NCBI GenBank assembly: GCA_947495035.1
Contig: CANLXI010000004.1
Coordinates: forward strand, 124,001-188,000
DNA length: 64,000 nt
Direction: 5' to 3'
Source: an uncultured Granulosicoccus sp.
Lineage (GTDB): Bacteria; Pseudomonadota; Gammaproteobacteria; Granulosicoccales; Granulosicoccaceae
The position numbers were made by a program, and so were the translations under genes. The notes under the pieces are model-generated. The model did no database searches and was not told the DNA's origin. It saw only the letters and a list, made by a program, of their open reading frames with translations. Of this stretch, positions 3,377-58,120 are shown piece by piece. How positions within the stretch are numbered: the stretch's first letter is position 1; each line of letters starts with the position of its first letter.

Positions 3377-3632
3377 GTCACGGAAATGAAGGCCGCCTCA
3401 TCGTGAATCGAGTCAGAGGAAAGCGAAGGGCCACCTCATCGTGAATCGAGTCAGAGGCAAGCGAAGGGCCACCTCACCGTGAATCGAGTCAGAGGCAAGC
3501 GAAGGGCCACCTCACCGTGAATCGAGTCAGAGGCAAGCGAAGGGCCGCCTCACCGTGAGTCCAATCGGAGGAAAGTGAAGGCAACCTCACCATGGCTTGA
3601 ATCCGGAGCAACGAAAGCCACATCGGCGAGAC
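3369..3632. repeat. 38-bp tandem repeat array, about 7 copies
   Basis: Direct repeats with a constant 38-bp period start at 3404, 3442, 3480, 3518 and 3556. A degenerate unit precedes them (3369-3403) and another follows (3594-3632). Units begin TGAATCGAGTCAGAGG and end CACCTCACCG. Each junction carries the small palindrome TCACCGTGA. The inner three copies differ at one or two positions. The array fills the space between the convergent thioesterase and HTTM-DCC genes and seems non-coding (recurrent TGA in one frame, period not a multiple of 3). Confidence 0.95.
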
Positions 3633-9530: not shown

Positions 9531-11063
9531 ATGGTGCCGCTGGGAGACTCAAGTCATGTTTCCAGAGGTTCCTTCGTGCCAATATCGTGCACCAGGTCGC
9601 AGCATCGAGACAACACGCGCTTGCCGCGTAGCGCTGTGCCGGCAAGGCGAGTGCGTGTGCGGAGGCTCGGGAGTGTGACTGTCATGCTCGCCAGTCTGCT
9701 GAGTCCGGCCATCGGCACGGCGGAGACTGCAGAGTTTGCCGAACTGTCAGCCCCTGGCGCTGCTGACTCGACACTGCAGGTGGTGGAAGGAGACATACTG
9801 GTGTCCGCCAGCAGCAGCAAGACACGGTCGATCGGGCTCAACAGAACCTCGCGTCTATGGCCGGACGGTATCGTGCCGTACCGGCTTGATGCCAGCCTGA
9901 CAGCCAGTGGTGTGGTGGCAGTCAGACAGGCCATCGACTACTGGAACAGTGTCAGTGGCATTACCTTGATGGCACTGGATGAGTGGCCAGCCGGGCAGGC
10001 AATGCCGGCCGATTCGGTGGTGTTCCAGTACGGTGAGGGCTGCGCTTCCTGGGTGGGCAGGCGTGGCGGCGAGCAGGAAATCTGGGTGGCACCCAATTGC
10101 AATGCAGGAAGCATGATGCACGAGATCGGGCATCTCCTCGGGCTTGAGCATGAGCACACACGTCCGGATCGTGATCAGCATATCCGGATTCACTGGGAAA
10201 ACATCAGTGCCGACAAGCGGCACAATTTCGATGTTGCACCTGCAGGTACTCAGCTGCTGGGTGACTACGACCACGGATCCATCATGCACTATGGACCCAT
10301 GAACTTTTCGGCCAACGGCCAGCCGACCATTACCGCGCTGGCGGATAACGGTGTCACGATGGGGCAGCGCATTGCCCCCAGCGCCGGAGATCTGGCCGCT
10401 GTGGCCGAGCTGTATGCGGCAGATCTGTCCATCGTGTCGAAATTCGCTGCAGATGACGGACTGGCCGAAGTGAGTCTGTATGTCAGCAACGGCGGATTGC
10501 AGGGCGCTCATCTGATCGAGGTTGATGTGCAGTTCGGCAATGCTCGACTACTGAGTCATTCAGGTGACGGCTGGCAGTGTCTGAACCTGACGCCTGGTCA
10601 TGCCAGCTGCGAGCTGGCGCGCATGAGTGGCAGCAGCAGCAGTCAGTTGGTGCTGTCACTGTCAGGTTCACTGACGGCTGGCGACATCACGGCGCAAGTC
10701 AGCTCCAAGACACCGGATGATGACCCGGACAACAATGCCGACAGCGTTACCCAGGTTCCGATGCAGGCAGCCGCCAATGCACTGGAAGATCCGATCGTTA
10801 CCGAGTCGACAACCACCATCACACAACTCGGCGCTGTCAGCTGGAGGTGGTTACTGTTGACGGGCCTGTTATTGCTGCACCGGTTGACCGGTGAGCGGAT
10901 CTATCGGCAGGCCCGTGACCGGGTCAAACGAATCCGGTGGGGGTGCGCCGGACGGGTCGGGCGGTGGTGCATCGGCAATGTCCTGCGGCGCTTCGGTCTG
11001 CTCCACCGGGACGCCTTCGTCGTTCAGCGGCTGATCATCGACTATGATGTCGTCGGCCGGTGA
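9531..11063 (+). CDS. Astacin-like (M12A) secreted metalloprotease
   Basis: Zinc endopeptidase of 510 aa. The catalytic signature HEIGHLLGLEHEHTRPDRD (His197 onwards) and the Met-turn SIMHYGP are intact, with an upstream PYRLDASL start of the catalytic domain. The N-terminus has basic residues and then VTVMLASLLSPAIGTAETA, a signal-like segment; translation may start later than 9531, for example at the GTG or ATG near 9675-9684. After the protease domain comes a beta-rich domain and a C-terminal hydrophobic segment (WRWLLLTGLLLLHRL). A basic tail then overlaps the opposite-strand gene by 195 bp. The tail probably arises from read-through beyond an ancestral stop. Confidence 0.88.
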   Translation: MVPLGDSSHVSRGSFVPISCTRSQHRDNTRLPRSAVPARRVRVRRLGSVTVMLASLLSPAIGTAETAEFAELSAPGAADSTLQVVEGDILVSASSSKTRSIGLNRTSRLWPDGIVPYRLDASLTASGVVAVRQAIDYWNSVSGITLMALDEWPAGQAMPADSVVFQYGEGCASWVGRRGGEQEIWVAPNCNAGSMMHEIGHLLGLEHEHTRPDRDQHIRIHWENISADKRHNFDVAPAGTQLLGDYDHGSIMHYGPMNFSANGQPTITALADNGVTMGQRIAPSAGDLAAVAELYAADLSIVSKFAADDGLAEVSLYVSNGGLQGAHLIEVDVQFGNARLLSHSGDGWQCLNLTPGHASCELARMSGSSSSQLVLSLSGSLTAGDITAQVSSKTPDDDPDNNADSVTQVPMQAAANALEDPIVTESTTTITQLGAVSWRWLLLTGLLLLHRLTGERIYRQARDRVKRIRWGCAGRVGRWCIGNVLRRFGLLHRDAFVVQRLIIDYDVVGR

Positions 11064-11489
11064 GCCACTGGGCAGAAACTGATCGTCACCGCCACTACTG
11101 CCTGCCGAGCTGCCTTCTCCCATCATCAACACCACTTCGACGATGTCGCTGTCCGGCGCCTTGCTGCTGCGCACCAGCATGTGATTGGGACTGAGCTTTG
11201 ACAAGGCCTTTTGCAGTGGTTCATCCACGATATCGATATTGACCATTGTCTCGGTATCACCGGTCACCACCACACTGATGCCCAGTTCATCGGTCAACAC
11301 CTGAGCCAGGGCGCTGGCGGATGTGTTACTGGCCTGGACAGACAGCAGGCCATCGTTCTCGCTCACCCGCACCGATTGCTGGGCGAGAGCCTGACCAGGT
11401 AAAGCGAGAGCCAGGCCGCACATGGTGGCCATCAGGGTTGCTGAACGAAGCAGCGCAGGAAAGACAATTGACCGTGACATGTGCGTCAT
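10869..11489 (-). CDS. Exported STN-domain-like protein with Pro/Asp-rich tail
   Basis: Predicted periplasmic protein of 206 aa with a clear signal peptide (LLRSATLMATMCGLALALPGQALAQ, split by the membrane core, cleaved near residue 36). The segment ASALAQVLTDELGISVVV, then MVNIDIVDEPLQKALSKL, resembles the secretin/TonB short N-terminal (STN) domain. The C-terminus is low-complexity and rich in Pro, Asp and Gly (DPVTGLPIDPLTGQPVQQ). No partner secretin or FecA receptor is nearby. Its last 65 codons lie opposite the astacin gene's tail. The STN assignment is by pattern and moderately sure; the function is unknown. Confidence 0.7.
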   Translation of the reverse strand: MTHMSRSIVFPALLRSATLMATMCGLALALPGQALAQQSVRVSENDGLLSVQASNTSASALAQVLTDELGISVVVTGDTETMVNIDIVDEPLQKALSKLSPNHMLVRSSKAPDSDIVEVVLMMGEGSSAGSSGGDDQFLPSGSPADDIIVDDQPLNDEGVPVEQTEAPQDIADAPPPDPSGAPPPDSFDPVTGLPIDPLTGQPVQQ

Positions 11490-11778
11490 CCGAAGTGTTC
11501 TGTTCTGGAGTGTAATCGCATGAGGAAATCCTGGGATGGCAAAGTGGTAAGACGCGGGCCTTTTTCTGTTTCATTGGAGCAAGTATTTTGCAGAATTGCT
11601 GACTGCTCGATGCTGCGAGTCGACGATGCTGGCGACCTGCGGCAGATTCCCGGTGGCAGGCTCGATGGCGGCTGTGGGGTCGCGTTCCGCGGGTATGTGT
11701 ATATATTACAAATTATTGCAATCAACAAGGTATGCTGACTGATACTGCTTCCATCATCCACGAACCGGAAGCCTGTTC
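11490..11778. other. Intergenic region upstream of the tandem regulators
   Basis: About 290 bp between the divergent STN-like gene and the first regulator. The half next to the regulator is unusually AT-rich for this window (11697-11740, with runs such as TATATATTACAAATTATTGC), which fits a promoter or a bent-DNA region. No clear -35/-10 pair with normal spacing was identified. An 85-codon open frame (11481-11738) has no ribosome binding site or recognisable motif and was not called. Confidence 0.5.
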
Positions 11779-13179
11779 ATGCCCTCAAGACCCACTTCGC
11801 TGGTGCTGGAAGATGATGTCACTCTTGCACGAGCTTACGAGCGGGTGCTGGTGTCACTTGGCTATGAGGTGACCATCGCCCATCGAGTCGATGCGGCACG
11901 CGCGCAGATTCGCGACAAAGGACCGGAGCTGATGCTGATCGATATCGATCTGCCGGACGGCAATGGTCTGGACCTGATGGAAGAGCTTCGCAACGACACG
12001 CGTGGCCGTTTCATCGTCATCAGCGGGGACAATTCCCAGCGCGCTGCCATCAAGAGTATTCGCAGCCAGGCGGTTGAGTTGCTGATAAAGCCGGTTGACC
12101 TGGCCAGTCTGCGTGCCATGCTCGATCCGCATCAGGCCAGCGAACATGCGATGAGCAAGGAAGAGCGCTCATCGTCAGGCTCCGCGGAGCGGGCTGCCGA
12201 CGAGAATGGCGTGGCAAACCTCGATCGCTCCGCCGGGCTGATGGGCGTCGCCGTTGCGAAGAGCGGCTGGTTTCAGGTGGGTGATCACCATGCACTGAGC
12301 ACCTTGCGCACGACCATGAGTTTCAGTGCGGAACGCAGCCGGGGACACGCTCTGATTACCGGTGAGCCCGGCGTCGACAAGCCGTCGGTTGCTCGTGCCA
12401 TTCATCAGCGAGGCAGGAGAACAGGGCAATGTCTGGTCATCGACTGCGCCGATGAAACCGGTGAGCTGGCCATGGTGCGAATGTTTGGCCGGGAAGACCC
12501 TCGTAGTGGTGAAATTCTGCACCGCGGGTATATCGAGCAGGCAGCGGCCGGCACACTGGTGCTGGATCATGTCGAGAAGCTGCCCATGGACATGCAATCG
12601 CGGCTGCTGCCGTTTCTGGAATCGGGATCATTTCGACGGGTTGATGGCAACCGTGGCGCGGAAGCTACCTTGTCGGTCATTGGCATCGCTCGCGACTCCG
12701 GCACCACGGATGTGGACGAGACCTCACTGCGTTCGGATTTCCTGTTCCGCTTGGCACAGACCACGCTCGCGGTACCCAATCTGCGCCAGTGCCGAGATGA
12801 TATTCAGGCCATTGCCGATTGGTTGCTGGCCGAGGCTGCCGGAGCGCGGGAGGGCGAGCTGCGCTTTTCGGCATCCAGTCGCGAACTGATCGCCAATGCC
12901 GTCTGGAAACGCAATGTGCGCGAGTTGCGTAGCGTCATCGAACAGGCGGTCGCTGCGACCGGATCCGGTGAAGAGGTGCAGATCGAAAGCGATCAGACCG
13001 ATGCGGCCAGTGCAGAATCGGGTTCGGAAATCGAGCAGTGGGTGGGAACCACCATCTGGGAATTCGAAAGACAGTTGCTCAATGCCACGCTGTTGCACTT
13101 CGATGGTGACAAGGAGAAGACGGCGAAGACGCTTGGCGTCAGTCTCAAGACACTCTACAACCGCATGAACGCCTACTGA
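11779..13179 (+). CDS. NtrC-like response regulator with degenerate AAA+ domain (copy 1)
   Basis: A 466-aa protein with the layout receiver - AAA+ - Fis-type helix-turn-helix. The receiver keeps the acidic pair (EDD at 11-13), the phospho-acceptor Asp55 in LIDIDLPDGNG and Lys104. The AAA+ domain is decayed: the P-loop position reads GEPGVDKPS (195-203) and the Walker B reads LVLDHVE with the catalytic Glu replaced. The GAFTGA sigma-54 contact loop is missing altogether (MFGREDPRSGEILHRGYIEQ). The C-terminal DNA-binding segment TAKTLGVSLKTLYNRMNAY is intact. So it is probably a phosphorylation-dependent DNA-binding protein and not a sigma-54 activator. No sensor kinase is adjacent. Confidence 0.88.
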   Translation: MPSRPTSLVLEDDVTLARAYERVLVSLGYEVTIAHRVDAARAQIRDKGPELMLIDIDLPDGNGLDLMEELRNDTRGRFIVISGDNSQRAAIKSIRSQAVELLIKPVDLASLRAMLDPHQASEHAMSKEERSSSGSAERAADENGVANLDRSAGLMGVAVAKSGWFQVGDHHALSTLRTTMSFSAERSRGHALITGEPGVDKPSVARAIHQRGRRTGQCLVIDCADETGELAMVRMFGREDPRSGEILHRGYIEQAAAGTLVLDHVEKLPMDMQSRLLPFLESGSFRRVDGNRGAEATLSVIGIARDSGTTDVDETSLRSDFLFRLAQTTLAVPNLRQCRDDIQAIADWLLAEAAGAREGELRFSASSRELIANAVWKRNVRELRSVIEQAVAATGSGEEVQIESDQTDAASAESGSEIEQWVGTTIWEFERQLLNATLLHFDGDKEKTAKTLGVSLKTLYNRMNAY

Positions 13180-13199
13180 GAGCCGACAACAGAATCACC

Positions 13200-14588
13200 A
13201 TGAGAGACAAGACAATGAACGAACAGCCGGTTCTGGACGTACTGATCGTGGAAGACGATGTGGCCACGGCATCTGCCCTGCAGCGAGTGCTGGAGCGAGC
13301 CGATTTCAAGGCCGACAATGTGCAGAAGCTGTCAGAGGCGATGCAGCGGGTTCAGCAACAGCCTCCTGCCGTGGTCCTGCTGGATCTCTCGCTGCCGGAC
13401 GGAGATGGCGTTGACGCGATAAAGTCGCTGAGTGCTGCGGGCGTCGGGCAGATCATCGTCATCAGCGGTACTGATGACGCCGAGAGAACCCGCCGTTGCC
13501 TGCAAGCCGGGGTCTTCGATTTTCTGGTGAAGCCTGCCCAGGCACGTGATCTGTTGCTGGCGGTGCGTCGCGCCGATGCGCATCGGCGCAAGTCCACCGT
13601 CGCCACCCGGGACTATCCACCGGAACTGACCCTGGGGTTTGGTGCTCTGGAGGGCAGTTCACCGGCAAGTCAGGAGTTGTTCAGACAACTGAGGAACGTG
13701 GGGGAGAAAGCCCCGTGTCCCGCCCTGATCATCGGGCAGCCGGGTGTTCTCAAGGGCGATGTCGCGGCACTGCTGCACCAGTATGGCAAACGTCCCGGCA
13801 AGGCCTATGTGATCAGTTGCGCCAGCGAAACCGGTAGTCAGGCGATTGACAGATTCTTTGGCGATCATGGGCGCGAGGCGGGCGGCGAGGCCGGTGGCAT
13901 CGAAGCCTACCTGCAGAAAGCCAATGGCGGTACGCTGGTGCTGGATGATGTCTCGACCCTGTCACTGGATATTCAGCGGCGCTTGAAGAGCTTCATGGTG
14001 TCTGGCAAGGCGCTGGCCAGCAACGCCTTGACGCCGACGGCCTACGAGTGCTCCATCGTTGGCATATTGCGGGAGCCGGCGGAAGTGGCGCTTGCCGAGG
14101 GTCGGTTGTACGATCCCTTCTATTACACTCTGGCGAAAAATACCATTCGTGTGCCGCCTCTGGTCGAGCGCAAGGAGGATATCGAACTGTTCGCAAGACG
14201 TGCCGTGGATCAGCTCAACAAGGTATTTGACAGTGAAAAGAGCCTGTCCCTTGCCATGCTGGATCAATTGCGCGGCCATTACTGGCCGGGCAATCAGGTC
14301 GAATTGAAGAATACGCTGTTGACCGCTTACCGACTGACCGAGGACGGTGATGAGATCGGTGCCGACCCCACGCTGTTCGTGGAAGGGGACAGCGGTGTCA
14401 GCGACCAGATAGCACCATTCATCGGCATGGCGTTCAAGGATGTGGAAGAACAACTGATCAAGGCGACACTGATCGCCTGCGACAACAACAAGAGCCAGAG
14501 TGCCAAAGTTCTGGGTATCAGCCTCAAGACTTTGTACAATCGCCTGAACCGCTATGAAGAGGAGCAGCAAACCGCTGTAGAGAGTTGA
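13200..14588 (+). CDS. NtrC-like response regulator with degenerate AAA+ domain (copy 2)
   Basis: Paralogue of the preceding gene, 462 aa, starting 20 bp after it; the alternative ATG at 13215 (MNEQPVLD) is equally plausible. The receiver has EDD, Asp62 in LLDLSLPDGDG and Lys111. The P-loop position is GQPGVLKGD (179-187), the Walker B is LVLDDVS (246-252), and there is no GAFTGA loop. The Fis-type end AKVLGISLKTLYNRLNRY closely matches copy 1. The two genes probably form one operon and arose by duplication followed by divergence. Mixed oligomers are possible. The loss of ATPase and sigma-54-contact features in both copies argues for long-standing use without that activity. Confidence 0.88.
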   Translation: MRDKTMNEQPVLDVLIVEDDVATASALQRVLERADFKADNVQKLSEAMQRVQQQPPAVVLLDLSLPDGDGVDAIKSLSAAGVGQIIVISGTDDAERTRRCLQAGVFDFLVKPAQARDLLLAVRRADAHRRKSTVATRDYPPELTLGFGALEGSSPASQELFRQLRNVGEKAPCPALIIGQPGVLKGDVAALLHQYGKRPGKAYVISCASETGSQAIDRFFGDHGREAGGEAGGIEAYLQKANGGTLVLDDVSTLSLDIQRRLKSFMVSGKALASNALTPTAYECSIVGILREPAEVALAEGRLYDPFYYTLAKNTIRVPPLVERKEDIELFARRAVDQLNKVFDSEKSLSLAMLDQLRGHYWPGNQVELKNTLLTAYRLTEDGDEIGADPTLFVEGDSGVSDQIAPFIGMAFKDVEEQLIKATLIACDNNKSQSAKVLGISLKTLYNRLNRYEEEQQTAVES

Positions 14589-16593: not shown

Positions 16594-18216
16594 ATGAAGT
16601 TTGGTGATATTCCGGTGGAGGATTCTGCGGGCAGTCTGCTGGCACATTCGGTACGGACTTCTGCGGGAAAGATACGCAAGGGGCAGCGTCTGACCGCGGC
16701 TCTGGTGCAGCAACTGCAGGCGGACGGCATTGCCAACATAACTGTGGCCCAGCTCGACAGTGACGATATCCACGAGGATGAGGCAGCACTGCAACTGGCG
16801 ACGGCACTGGCGGGTGAAGGGCTGAGGCTGGGAAAGGCCAGTACCGGTCGAGTGAATCTGCATGCTCAGACCGACGGGATCTGTGATTTCGAGCGAACCC
16901 TCGTCTATCAGGCCAACCTGGTGAATGAAGGCATCACCATTGCGACCGTGCACCCGTCGACTTCGGTTGGCAAGTCACGACTGGTTGCAACCGTCAAGAT
17001 CATTCCCTACGCGGTCAGCAAGAATGCCTTGCAACAGGTTCTGGCGGGTTTGCAGGGGCGACAGATTCGGGTGCATGCCACCGTACCCCAGCGAGCCGCT
17101 CTGATCCAGACGCGCCTGCCGGGCATGAGGGAGTCGATTCTTGACAAGACCGTCGGTGTCACCAGGCAGCGGCTGTTGAAGCAGGGTGCGCAGCTGACGA
17201 GCGAACGGCGAGTGTCACATGACGTCGACGAGCTTGTCAGGGCCATGAGCGATGCTGTCGAAGGTGGCGTGGACTGGCTTCTGGTGGCAGGGGCGTCGGC
17301 TATCAGCGATCGTCAGGATATCGTGCCATCGGCCATTGTGAGGCTGGGTGGTCAAGTGGAACATTTCGGGATGCCGATGGATCCGGGGAATCTGTTGCTG
17401 ATCGGCAGGCTTGGGAACACCAGCATCATCGGTCTGCCGGGTTGCGCGCGGTCGCCCAAACCCAATGGGCTGGACAAGGTGCTGGAGCGTCTGTCTGCCC
17501 GGCTGCCGGTGAGCTCCGGCTGGATTGCCTCGCTCGGTGTGGGGGGGCTGTTGCATGAGATCGTCGACCGGCCAGAGCCGCGTGTCAGGGGCACAGGCAA
17601 TCTCGGCGTTGCGGCCCTGGTGCTGGCAGCAGGGTCTTCCCGACGCTTTGGCGAGCATAACAAGTTGCTTGCCACGCAAACCGGCAAGCCTCTGCTGACT
17701 CATGTTCTGGACGCAGTGGGACACAGTGGTCTTGACAGCGCTCTCGTGGTGACCGGCCATGATGCCGAGTCGGTCGAGCAACTGTGTCAGATCGCCGATC
17801 AGCGCGCGAGCCTGCCGATAAGCACCGTACACAACGCACTGCATGCCAGTGGCATGGCCAGTTCCCTGATCTGCGGCATCGGTGAACTCGGTGAAGCCGG
17901 AGTGGACGCGGTGATCGTCTGTCTGGCTGACATGCCGGAAGTCACTGCCAGCGTCATGCAATCCCTGTTAGCTGCATACCGCCTGAATCCGGGCAAGGCG
18001 CTGTATATCCCGACCTATCAGGGGCAGCGTGGCAATCCGGTGCTGATCGCTGCATCGCTGTTCGATTCGGTGCTGCGACTGGAAGGAGATGTCGGCGCCA
18101 GGGTGCTTGCAAGGGATTTTCCGGACTGTGTGCAGGAGGTGCCTTGCGATTCTGCCGGTATCCTCAAGGATATCGATGAACCGTCCGACCTGCAGCCGAC
18201 CATGGCGGCGTCATGA
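16594..18216 (+). CDS. Molybdopterin-binding / MobA-like nucleotidyltransferase fusion
   Basis: A two-domain 540-aa protein. Residues 1-330 resemble the MoeA/MogA-type molybdopterin-binding fold (TLVYQANLVNEGITIATVHP, LLVAGASAISDRQDIVPSAI, GMPMDPGNLLLIGRLGNTSI). Residues from about 340 begin an NTP-transferase domain with VAALVLAAGSSRRFGEHNKL, the nucleotide-binding signature of MobA/MocA enzymes, and continue with VIVCLADMPEVTASVMQSL. Such fusions are associated with maturation of molybdenum hydroxylases of the xanthine dehydrogenase/CO dehydrogenase type by cytidylyl transfer. No such hydroxylase is in this window; the sulfite oxidase at 59415 uses a simpler cofactor form. Confidence 0.85.
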   Translation: MKFGDIPVEDSAGSLLAHSVRTSAGKIRKGQRLTAALVQQLQADGIANITVAQLDSDDIHEDEAALQLATALAGEGLRLGKASTGRVNLHAQTDGICDFERTLVYQANLVNEGITIATVHPSTSVGKSRLVATVKIIPYAVSKNALQQVLAGLQGRQIRVHATVPQRAALIQTRLPGMRESILDKTVGVTRQRLLKQGAQLTSERRVSHDVDELVRAMSDAVEGGVDWLLVAGASAISDRQDIVPSAIVRLGGQVEHFGMPMDPGNLLLIGRLGNTSIIGLPGCARSPKPNGLDKVLERLSARLPVSSGWIASLGVGGLLHEIVDRPEPRVRGTGNLGVAALVLAAGSSRRFGEHNKLLATQTGKPLLTHVLDAVGHSGLDSALVVTGHDAESVEQLCQIADQRASLPISTVHNALHASGMASSLICGIGELGEAGVDAVIVCLADMPEVTASVMQSLLAAYRLNPGKALYIPTYQGQRGNPVLIAASLFDSVLRLEGDVGARVLARDFPDCVQEVPCDSAGILKDIDEPSDLQPTMAAS

Positions 18217-50965: not shown

Positions 50966-51248
50966 GTTGCAGTTGCAGTTGCAGTGGTTGTTGTCGTTGC
51001 ATCAGTGACGCAGTGCACCGATGCAGATAGAGCCAACAACCAGAGTCGCGACCGCAGCCGCGATCTGCAGCCGCGATCTGCAGCCGCGATCTGTAACTGC
51101 GATCTGTAACTGCGATCTGTAACTGCGATCTGTAACTGCGATCTGTAACTGCGTTCGTAATTGCGATCTGTAATTCGCTGCCCGTAGAGATTCAGGCTGC
51201 CGAACGGGCAGAATTTCGGGTCAATCTCTTCAGAGAAGTCATCTCGGT
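50966..51248. repeat. 13-bp tandem repeats between hutF and hutI
   Basis: The convergent gap of about 280 bp holds a tandem array. Units GATCTGCAGCCGC start at 51062 and 51075, and GATCTGTAACTGC starts at 51088, 51101, 51114, 51127 and 51140. A broken copy at 51153-51164 and GATCTGTAATTCG at 51165-51177 follow; a degenerate first copy is at 51050. Near 50966 lies a small GTTGCA hexamer repeat. Nothing in the gap looks coding. Confidence 0.95.
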
Positions 51249-55971: not shown

Positions 55972-56076
55972 GGCTAGTCATACAGCACTCCATGCCCGGC
56001 GAACAGGCGCCAGTTTGCGCTGGTTTTCGCCGGGCTTCCACCTGACAATGACAGAGACTACCCGGGTACACGCTAG

Positions 56077-56577
56077 ATGCTGCAGCTCGCCGACTTCATT
56101 GATGCCATCAACAAGGGTGTCGCCGCTGTGGTTCGATGGCTGGTCCTGCTCATGGTGCTGGTCCAGTTCGGCATTGTGGTAGGGCGGTATGTGTTCGGAC
56201 TCAACAGCATCGCCGTACAGGAGAGTGTGCTCTACATGCATGCCACCCTGTTCATGCTGGCTGCCGGCTACACCTTGTTGGTGGACAAGCATGTGCGCGT
56301 GGATGTGTTCTACGCAAAGCTTGGCCCCGCAGCTCGTCGACGAATCGAGATTTTCGGTCATCTGGTTTTCCTGATACCTACCATGCTTGCATTGATATAC
56401 TGGTCATGGCCATCGGTGGTGAACGCCTGGAAGATTCTGGAAGGCCCGATATCGGTGGGTGGTATCAAGGCAGTGTTTCTGATGAAGACGCTCATACCGG
56501 CCTTCTGCATACTGGTTCTGCTGCAATCCGCAGCGCTGTTGCTGCGATTGTTCTCGGGTGCGAACAGCGATGACTGA
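56077..56577 (+). CDS. TRAP transporter small permease (DctQ)
   Basis: Four-helix small membrane subunit of 166 aa. Segments are WLVLLMVLVQFGIVVGRYVF, SVLYMHATLFMLAAGYTLLV, FGHLVFLIPTMLALIYWSW and TLIPAFCILVLLQSAALLL. The conserved HVRVDVFYAKLGPAARRRIE follows the second helix. It lies 105 bp after the binding-protein gene and overlaps the large subunit gene by 8 bases, so Q and M are translationally coupled. Confidence 0.94.
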   Translation: MLQLADFIDAINKGVAAVVRWLVLLMVLVQFGIVVGRYVFGLNSIAVQESVLYMHATLFMLAAGYTLLVDKHVRVDVFYAKLGPAARRRIEIFGHLVFLIPTMLALIYWSWPSVVNAWKILEGPISVGGIKAVFLMKTLIPAFCILVLLQSAALLLRLFSGANSDD

Positions 56578-58120
56578 GTATCTCGATGTCTTCATGTTCG
56601 CGGCTCTCATGGGGGCGATACTGCTGGGTTTTCCCGTGGCATTCAGTATCGGTGGTGTGGCCATTGTCTTCGCCTATCTGGGCTGGGCGCTGGACATCAT
56701 GGATATCTCCCTGCTGGGAGCTACCAGTCAGCGCATTTTCGGCCTGCTCAGCAATTCCGTACTCATTGCCATTCCGCTGTTCGTGCTGATGGGGGCGGTG
56801 CTCGAGAAGAGCCGAATTGCCGAAGAACTGCTCGATACCATGGGGCGGCTGTTCGGTCAGCTACGGGGTGGACTGGGTATTTCGGTGGTGTTGGTGGGTA
56901 CCTTGCTGGCGGCCTCTACCGGTATTGTCGGTGCCACGGTGGTGGCCATGGGCATGATCGCATTGCCTACCATGCTGCGTGCCGGCTACAACCCTCGTGT
57001 TGCCTCCGGCATCGTCTGTACTGCCGGTACGCTGGGTCAGATCATCCCACCCTCAACCTTGCTGATCATCCTCGCCGATGTCATGTCCAATGCCTATCAG
57101 CAGGCGCAATACGAGCAAGGCAAATTCTCGGTGGAGGCCTTGTCCGTCGGACAGTTCTTCGCGGCTGCCATCGTGCCCGGTCTGATTCTGGTGGTTCTGT
57201 ATCTACTGTACATTCTGCTGCGCGGCTGGATTCGACCGCAGGACATGCCACCGGCATCGATGGATCTGGCAATGCCATCGAGGCGGGAAGTGCTGGGGGC
57301 TATCGTGCCGCCTGTATTGCTGATCGTGACGGTACTCGGGGCCATACTGGGCGGGGTGGCAACACCGACCGAAGCAGCCTCCGTCGGTGCCGTAGGCGCG
57401 CTGCTGATGGCAGGCTTGCGTGTCGGGCAGTACCGAGGTTTGATTCTGACAGGTGCGGTGGCGTTGATTGTTCTGGGCGTCATGGCAGGGCTCTTTCCGG
57501 TGCGCCTGCAACGCAATGATCTGGATACAGTGGCGTTGGCGGCCGGAGGTATGTATATCGGTCTGACGCTGATCGCTGCGCTGGCCATCCTGGCGGCGCT
57601 GCGTGGCACATTTCGGCAGCGCATCATTCATGAGGCTGTCAGTTCGACCATGACCATGACAGCAATGATCTTCGCCACCATACTGGCTGCCGGAATCTTC
57701 TCTCTGGTGTTCGTCGGACTGGGGGGCGAGGAGCGCGTCGCGGCTATTCTTGCCGACATGCCGGGCGGCCCAGCCGGCGCCCTGCTGTTCTGTCTGGCAT
57801 TTGTCTTCGTACTCGGCTTCTTTCTCGATTTCGTCGAAATATCCGTGATCGTACTGCCTTTGATCGTGCCGCCACTGATTCTGATGGGGCACGACCCGGT
57901 CTGGTTGGGTATTCTACTGGCCATCAATCTGCAAACCAGCTTTCTCACGCCGCCCTTCGGCTTTTCACTGTTCTATCTGCGTGGCGCTGCGCCCAAGGAG
58001 GTCACTACCGGTCAGATCTACGCCGGTGTCCTGCCATTCATCGGTCTGCAGCTCATCGGGATACTGGTGGTCTGGCTGGCACCGGGCGTGTCTACATGGT
58101 TACCCGACGTGTTGTTCTAG
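56570..58120 (+). CDS. TRAP transporter large permease (DctM)
   Basis: Main membrane subunit of 516 aa, longer than typical DctM (about 430), as in the mannitol/chloroaromatic branch with extra helices in the middle. Marks are GFPVAFSIGGVAIVFAYLGW, IPLFVLMGAVLEKSRIAEEL, GIVGATVVAMGMIALPTMLR, GTLGQIIPPSTLLIILADVM, GGVATPTEAASVGAVGALLM and LTPPFGFSLFYLRGAAP. Solute import is driven by a sodium or proton gradient. The ATG at 56570 is preferred to an in-frame start at 56558. Confidence 0.95.
   Translation: MTEYLDVFMFAALMGAILLGFPVAFSIGGVAIVFAYLGWALDIMDISLLGATSQRIFGLLSNSVLIAIPLFVLMGAVLEKSRIAEELLDTMGRLFGQLRGGLGISVVLVGTLLAASTGIVGATVVAMGMIALPTMLRAGYNPRVASGIVCTAGTLGQIIPPSTLLIILADVMSNAYQQAQYEQGKFSVEALSVGQFFAAAIVPGLILVVLYLLYILLRGWIRPQDMPPASMDLAMPSRREVLGAIVPPVLLIVTVLGAILGGVATPTEAASVGAVGALLMAGLRVGQYRGLILTGAVALIVLGVMAGLFPVRLQRNDLDTVALAAGGMYIGLTLIAALAILAALRGTFRQRIIHEAVSSTMTMTAMIFATILAAGIFSLVFVGLGGEERVAAILADMPGGPAGALLFCLAFVFVLGFFLDFVEISVIVLPLIVPPLILMGHDPVWLGILLAINLQTSFLTPPFGFSLFYLRGAAPKEVTTGQIYAGVLPFIGLQLIGILVVWLAPGVSTWLPDVLF

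Follow-up and report, generated by a model that had tools for sequence, protein, structure and literature searches.

A conserved tandem pair of NtrC-type response regulators with degenerate AAA+ motifs in Granulosicoccus

Results and discussion

Two adjacent response regulators of an uncultured member of the marine genus Granulosicoccus, RR1 and RR2, have the receiver, AAA+ and Fis-type helix-turn-helix (HTH) architecture of NtrC-type sigma-54 activators (Pfam) and, when aligned to canonical bEBPs, lack the GAFTGA loop of such activators. The Walker A (GxxGxGK) and Walker B (DE) signatures are incomplete in both: the lysine and the aspartate are kept, and the glycine and the glutamate are lost. 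On balance, and judging from sequence, we suggest that RR1 and RR2 probably lack ATPase activity, act independently of sigma-54, bind DNA as phospho-switched regulators and control their own expression, and that they derive from an NtrC-type activator that was then duplicated. Their motor would have been out of action over a long span of evolution, and they probably regulate genes purely by binding DNA, in contrast to the ATP-driven action of their relatives.

Organization of the pair and its motor motifs

The window, by which we mean the whole stretch of 64,000 nucleotides analysed, lies on contig C4 of genome G000, where RR1 and RR2 are consecutive genes with 20-35 bp between them. Their features are as follows.

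11779 to 13179, + strand: RR1, receiver, degenerate AAA+ and Fis-type HTH, 466 aa (ORF; Pfam Response_reg, Sigma54_activat, AAA_lid_14, HTH_8)
11938 to 11955, + strand: RR1 phosphoacceptor motif IDIDLP with Asp55 (invariant in 19 relatives)
12361 to 12387, + strand: RR1 degenerate P-loop GEPGVDKPS, with Asp in place of the last Gly and the Lys retained (alignment to canonical bEBPs)
12484 to 12528, + strand: RR1 loop 1 without GAFTGA, FGREDPRSGEILHRG (alignment to canonical bEBPs)
12556 to 12576, + strand: RR1 Walker B LVLDHVE, Glu lost (alignment)
12727 to 12753, + strand: RR1 arginine-finger segment LRSDFLFRL, with both Arg retained (alignment)
13042 to 13176, + strand: RR1 Fis-type HTH (Pfam HTH_8; alignment)
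13200 to 14588, + strand: RR2, receiver, degenerate AAA+ and Fis-type HTH, 457 aa from a start at 13215 or 462 aa from one at 13200 (ORF; Pfam Response_reg, Sigma54_activat, AAA_lid_14, HTH_8)
13380 to 13397, + strand: RR2 phosphoacceptor motif LDLSLP with Asp57 (alignment)
13734 to 13760, + strand: RR2 degenerate P-loop GQPGVLKGD, with Leu in place of the last Gly and the Lys retained (alignment)
13857 to 13904, + strand: RR2 loop 1 without GAFTGA (alignment)
13935 to 13955, + strand: RR2 Walker B LVLDDVS, Glu replaced by Asp (alignment)
14106 to 14132, + strand: RR2 arginine-finger segment LYDPFYYTL, with neither Arg retained (alignment)
14421 to 14555, + strand: RR2 Fis-type HTH (Pfam HTH_8; alignment)

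Alignment to canonical bEBPs bears out the claim of an earlier note on this DNA that GAFTGA is absent from both genes, and likewise its reading of altered Walker B motifs (LDHVE and LDDVS, aligned here as LVLDHV and LVLDDV). Its description of the P-loops as decayed holds for the glycine before the lysine, but is overstated for the rest of the motif: the Walker-A lysine and two P-loop glycines survive and are invariant across the degenerate clade (19 relatives for the lysine). The residue preceding that lysine is Asp, Glu or Gln in nine RR1 proteins and Leu, Met or Gln in nine RR2 proteins. Given the invariant lysine, the domain may retain some binding of nucleotide or another ligand. The arginine fingers, a point missed by the earlier note, are asymmetric, with a putative pair retained in RR1 and gone from RR2, and sensor II aligns as NVREL in RR1 and NQVEL in RR2. 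Both proteins thus have the bEBP architecture without GAFTGA, as in the GAFTGA-less sigma-70 bEBPs. An altered loop 1 is also found in other bEBP-type proteins of the same genome, reading GAFEGA (C25, L004) or DSLAGS (C18, L007), or with no such motif (C1, L008).

At the other end of the proteins the receivers are intact, as had been claimed: Asp55/Lys104 in RR1 and Asp57/Lys106 in RR2 (numbered 62/111 from the upstream start used earlier) are invariant across 19 relatives, and phosphorylation probably still switches both regulators, since these residues are in place. The Fis-type ends, once described as near-identical, are so in the recognition helix SLKTLYNR, which is exactly common to the two proteins and invariant over nine RR1 and nine RR2 proteins, but not over the whole HTH, where just 23 of 45 residues are identical. 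The RR1 and RR2 ORFs abut or overlap by a few bases in G016 and G007, which fits an operon arrangement.

Conservation, selection and age of the loss

The two genes lie side by side, with the same motif losses, in nine Granulosicoccus genomes (G000, G002, G007, G012, G014, G016, G023, G024 and G026). The earlier note proposed that they may be a distinct regulator family, and this is supported by their conservation and by a careful tree in which the degenerate rows, all without GAFTGA, split from canonical bEBPs with support 100/100; the split persists in a quicker second tree with 14 extra rows. Close homologues carrying GAFTGA or an intact P-loop in the same genes were sought and none was found. 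Degeneration extends to single-copy relatives in G003, G015, G018, G030, G313 and G316 and to a third copy in G002; every full-length Granulosicoccaceae relative is equally degenerate.

That the genes might be rare, decaying, pseudogene-like copies is a reading we regard as extremely improbable. It would account for the disappearance of several canonical motifs, but frames are intact in all nine pairs, the substitutions are shared, and dN/dS is low in every domain: 0.04-0.10 for the whole gene (against orthologues with measurable dS) and 0.04-0.07 for the AAA+ domain where unsaturated. Purifying selection therefore acts on both genes, and together with their conservation it rules out decay.

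An HTH-profile search of 274 genomes from the class and 399 from the phylum recovered many proteins of the same HTH type in other families. The out-of-family proteins that were read have a GAFTGA-type loop (GAFTGA, GSFTGA, GGFTGA or GGYTGA) together with a GESGxGK or similar P-loop; this reading covers the examined proteins, with L225 lacking a scorable ORF and most of the weaker HTH matches unread. Because these more distant relatives are canonical, the loss can be dated to the Granulosicoccaceae, and loss of GAFTGA and of an intact P-loop looks, from sequence comparison, like a trait of that family.

The AAA+ fold and relatives that have shed a domain

AlphaFold models of both proteins keep the AAA+ fold, with a TM-score of ~0.8 to the AAA+ domains of NtrC1, FleQ and FlrC, and their top structural matches are NtrX, NtrC4, NtrC1 and LuxO. 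The models were built from a shallow alignment (10 sequences) and have mean pLDDT of 76 and 79, with unreliable domain orientation. In these models the fold is kept; a fold match says nothing about activity.

Not every relative has the domain. G028 encodes, 237 bp downstream of a kinase gene, an intact ORF of 258 aa that has a receiver and this same HTH but lacks AAA+; if the assembly is correct there, the AAA+ domain is dispensable in this branch. Conversely, receiver-less degenerate bEBP-type proteins form convergent pairs in G003 and G018, where they flank BrkB, MscS, AI-2E or Dps genes.

L145, 7418 to 8599 and 12423 to 13379: receiver-less pair
L146, 7346 to 8539 and 10966 to 11964: receiver-less pair

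These observations bear on the idea that the AAA+ domain is a ligand sensor of the kind found in VpsR and FleQ, responding to c-di-GMP or nucleotide, with the Walker-A lysine serving the pocket and phosphorylation secondary. The invariance of that lysine and of two glycines across the clade, the strong purifying selection on the domain and the resemblance of the models to NtrX, NtrC1/NtrC4, LuxO, VpsR and FleQ would all suit such a sensor. Replacement of the glycine before the lysine by Asp, Glu or Gln, or by Leu, Met or Gln, should nevertheless hinder phosphate binding, and one family member lacks the entire domain. We consider a ligand sensor credible but unlikely, and retain the phospho-switched regulator as the preferred reading.

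Kinase partner and gene neighbourhood

The earlier remark that no kinase lies near either gene holds for G000, where the window contains no histidine-kinase ATPase domain, the nearest such domains on the contig are ~67 kb and ~107 kb away (87 HATPase_c matches in the whole genome), and no orthologue of the kinase described below was matched at E 1e-20. It does not extend to the relatives. A HisKA/HATPase kinase of ~400 aa adjoins the regulator in G030, G026 and G028, lies one gene away in G015, and is within ~4 kb in G016 and G002; in the copies of G030 and G028, Pfam recognizes RsbRD_N. Of the genomes that have a family regulator, 9 of 14 also carry this kinase, against 1 of 43 among those that have none (Fisher p = 2e-6, with no correction for relatedness); in that single exception, G022, the contig ends where the gene order of G015 would place the regulator. 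As relatives keep the kinase adjacent or nearby, the orphan state of RR1 and RR2 would be a local loss.

Recurrent neighbours in the relatives are envelope-stress genes (MscS, DUF2254, BrkB, AI-2E, YflT, Dps and hemerythrin). Around the pair in G000, G012 and G024 there is neither kinase nor stress island; in G000, DUF2254 and a stand-alone receiver sit on another contig, beside predicted sarcosine-oxidase-type genes. G014 combines stress genes with neighbours of the window type (ppsA, ppsR and astacin), which suggests rearrangement in the G000 lineage.

Other features of the window were recorded along the way. An astacin-type protease gene (9531-11063, +) and a gene for a small predicted secreted protein (10869-11489, -) overlap tail to tail by ~195 bp, and the ends of these ORFs also overlap in G012, G014, G023 and G024. 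At 16594-18216 a molybdopterin-binding-like domain is fused to a MobA-like nucleotidyltransferase. Tandem repeats lie at 3391-3591 (38 bp x 5.3) and 51047-51173 (13 bp x 8.8). Positions 56001-58000 have a strong AT skew (-0.25), for which the coding there of membrane proteins resembling TRAP transporter subunits would account.

A candidate operator and the class of promoter

Upstream of RR1 we identified a palindrome as a predicted operator.

11697 to 11711, no strand assigned: predicted operator GTGTATATATTACAA, 67 bp upstream of RR1, a palindrome of the form KTGTAW-N3-TTACAM (all 15 positions shared by 4 genomes)

The site is identical at 15 of 15 positions in G000, G012, G024 and G023, in promoters whose flanks have diverged. 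When 6-mer dyads were enumerated in 85 intergenic regions, with 100 dinucleotide shuffles as control, TTGTAA-N3-TTACAA was found in the islands of 8 genomes, counted in the same regions where it was discovered, and the best dyad of any kind in the shuffles reached 4. Sites cluster in islands with P = 5e-6 in G313 and 2e-5 in G016. The window copy has 2 mismatches to TTGTAA-N3-TTACAA and is the 1 match in 64 kb, with 0.25 expected; KTGTAW-N3-WTACAM has 2-3 matches per genome in G000, G012, G024 and G023. Genome-wide counts of TTGTAA-N3-TTACAA show no excess over a reversed-pattern control, so the regulon is probably small or degenerate, and a large one is unsupported.

The palindrome could instead belong to another regulator of the island, with RR1 and RR2 binding elsewhere. 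Only synteny ties it to the pair, and some islands do hold stand-alone receivers and other regulators. A candidate site nevertheless precedes the regulator gene itself in nine genomes (G000, G012, G024, G023, G014, G016, G026, G002 and G313), in some of them even where the island genes have gone, and we judge assignment to another regulator to be rather improbable. In canonical islands outside the family the operator was mostly not seen. In G248 a small stress-type ORF is preceded by a 1-mismatch sigma-54 promoter, with a 2-mismatch site 89 bp upstream of that promoter, and G572 has a 2-mismatch site upstream of the regulator; these cases are too few for any claim of conservation there. Elsewhere, a perfect operator-like site lies at ~7173 of L179 (G016:C77), flanked by an ECF-sigma-like gene pair on one side and a DUF4331-like gene on the other, and operator-like sites also occur near DUF4331/CHRD-like/ECF-like genes (gene names read by eye from sequence).

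G000 encodes rpoN and canonical bEBPs, and the presence of rpoN rules out genome-wide loss of sigma-54 as the cause of the degeneration. It could also be imagined that RR1 and RR2 still serve sigma-54 promoters within mixed hexamers, as modulators or dominant-negative partners of one of these intact bEBPs, where the retained arginine fingers of RR1 could act on a neighbouring subunit. No intact bEBP is conserved beside the pair, however, the candidate partners are distant (25-30% identity), and G028 has no ring domain at all. Moreover, sigma-54 promoter-like sites are nearly absent from the islands, with one distinct weak site (2 mismatches, in G002) in 85 intergenic regions whose status as targets is predicted. 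Service in mixed hexamers therefore seems decidedly improbable. A consensus scan found no good sigma-70 hexamer pair upstream of RR1.

Proposed mechanism and significance

We propose that the ancestor of RR1 and RR2 was an NtrC-type sigma-54 activator in an envelope-stress gene island, and that its ATP-powered motor was lost in the ancestor of the Granulosicoccaceae; the sequences show that the sigma-54-contacting loop, last P-loop glycine and Walker-B glutamate are gone. The AAA+ fold has been kept under selection, presumably as a scaffold for oligomerization and signal transmission. Conservation and position suggest that both proteins bind the palindrome TTGTAA-N3-TTACAA through their common recognition helix and act on sigma-70-type promoters, their own foremost. 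The regulator gene would later have been duplicated to give the operon pair, and, as the arginine fingers persist in RR1 and are gone from RR2, the two may assemble into mixed oligomers or be rivals for one site. Adjacency suggests that the input in relatives is probably the RsbRD_N-HisKA kinase; in G000, which lacks it, another kinase or a small phosphodonor would have to serve.

More tentatively, one family may span the whole transition between an ATP-driven sigma-54 activator and a simple repressor or activator switched by phosphorylation: canonical relatives outside, ATPase-dead full-length single copies, the dead-dead tandem pair with asymmetric arginine-finger loss as a hetero-oligomer, the receiver-less pairs and the AAA+-deleted member. 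Under this possible but doubtful scheme, the acidic P-loop residue may mimic the phosphate of a nucleotide and keep the oligomer locked.

NtrC-type regulators that have lost sigma-54 interaction have so far been known as scattered single proteins; here the loss involves a whole family, a set-up in which the remaining role of a dead AAA+ ring and the path from sigma-54 activator to ordinary regulator become testable. Many such proteins are probably misannotated as sigma-54 activators.

Comparison with known systems

A literature search on degenerate-Walker response regulators, RsbRD kinases and Granulosicoccus regulators returned nothing direct. Precedents are Rhodobacter capsulatus NtrC, Caulobacter NtrC, VpsR, TyrR, DhaR and HupR, reported to act at sigma-70 promoters without GAFTGA (PMC10274813, PMC3162934). 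The two NtrC proteins share with RR1 and RR2 the receiver, AAA+ and Fis HTH domains and a loop-1 deletion that removes GAFTGA. R. capsulatus NtrC requires ATP binding and Caulobacter NtrC requires Walker A and B residues (PMC10274813), whereas in RR1 and RR2 both P-loop and Walker B are altered, the genes form a tandem pair, and in the tree the proteins stand apart from the sampled canonical bEBPs. VpsR of Vibrio cholerae, likewise GAFTGA-less and a reported sigma-70 regulator for which ATP is not required (PMC10274813), is among the structural matches of both models; it senses c-di-GMP and phosphate, while RR1 and RR2 keep a normal receiver and are paired.

NtrX (Brucella abortus structure) is the best structural match of the RR1 model and has been crystallized with ATP and ADP, i.e., it is a nucleotide binder. 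Against the NtrX model NF051870, RR1 and RR2 score 162 and 126 bits, below the curated cut-off of 600.

ActR/PrrA/RegA are regulators composed of a receiver and a Fis HTH. This is the architecture left when AAA+ is removed, and the G028 relative has the same layout; with a score of 66 bits, where the cut-off for the family is 250, it looks to be of separate origin. Unlike ActR/PrrA/RegA, RR1 and RR2 retain the AAA+ domain. The class of GAFTGA-less sigma-70 bEBPs is already known. New in this case are the spread of the loss across a family, its extension to the P-loops, the tandem arrangement, a member devoid of AAA+, and the candidate kinase and operator.
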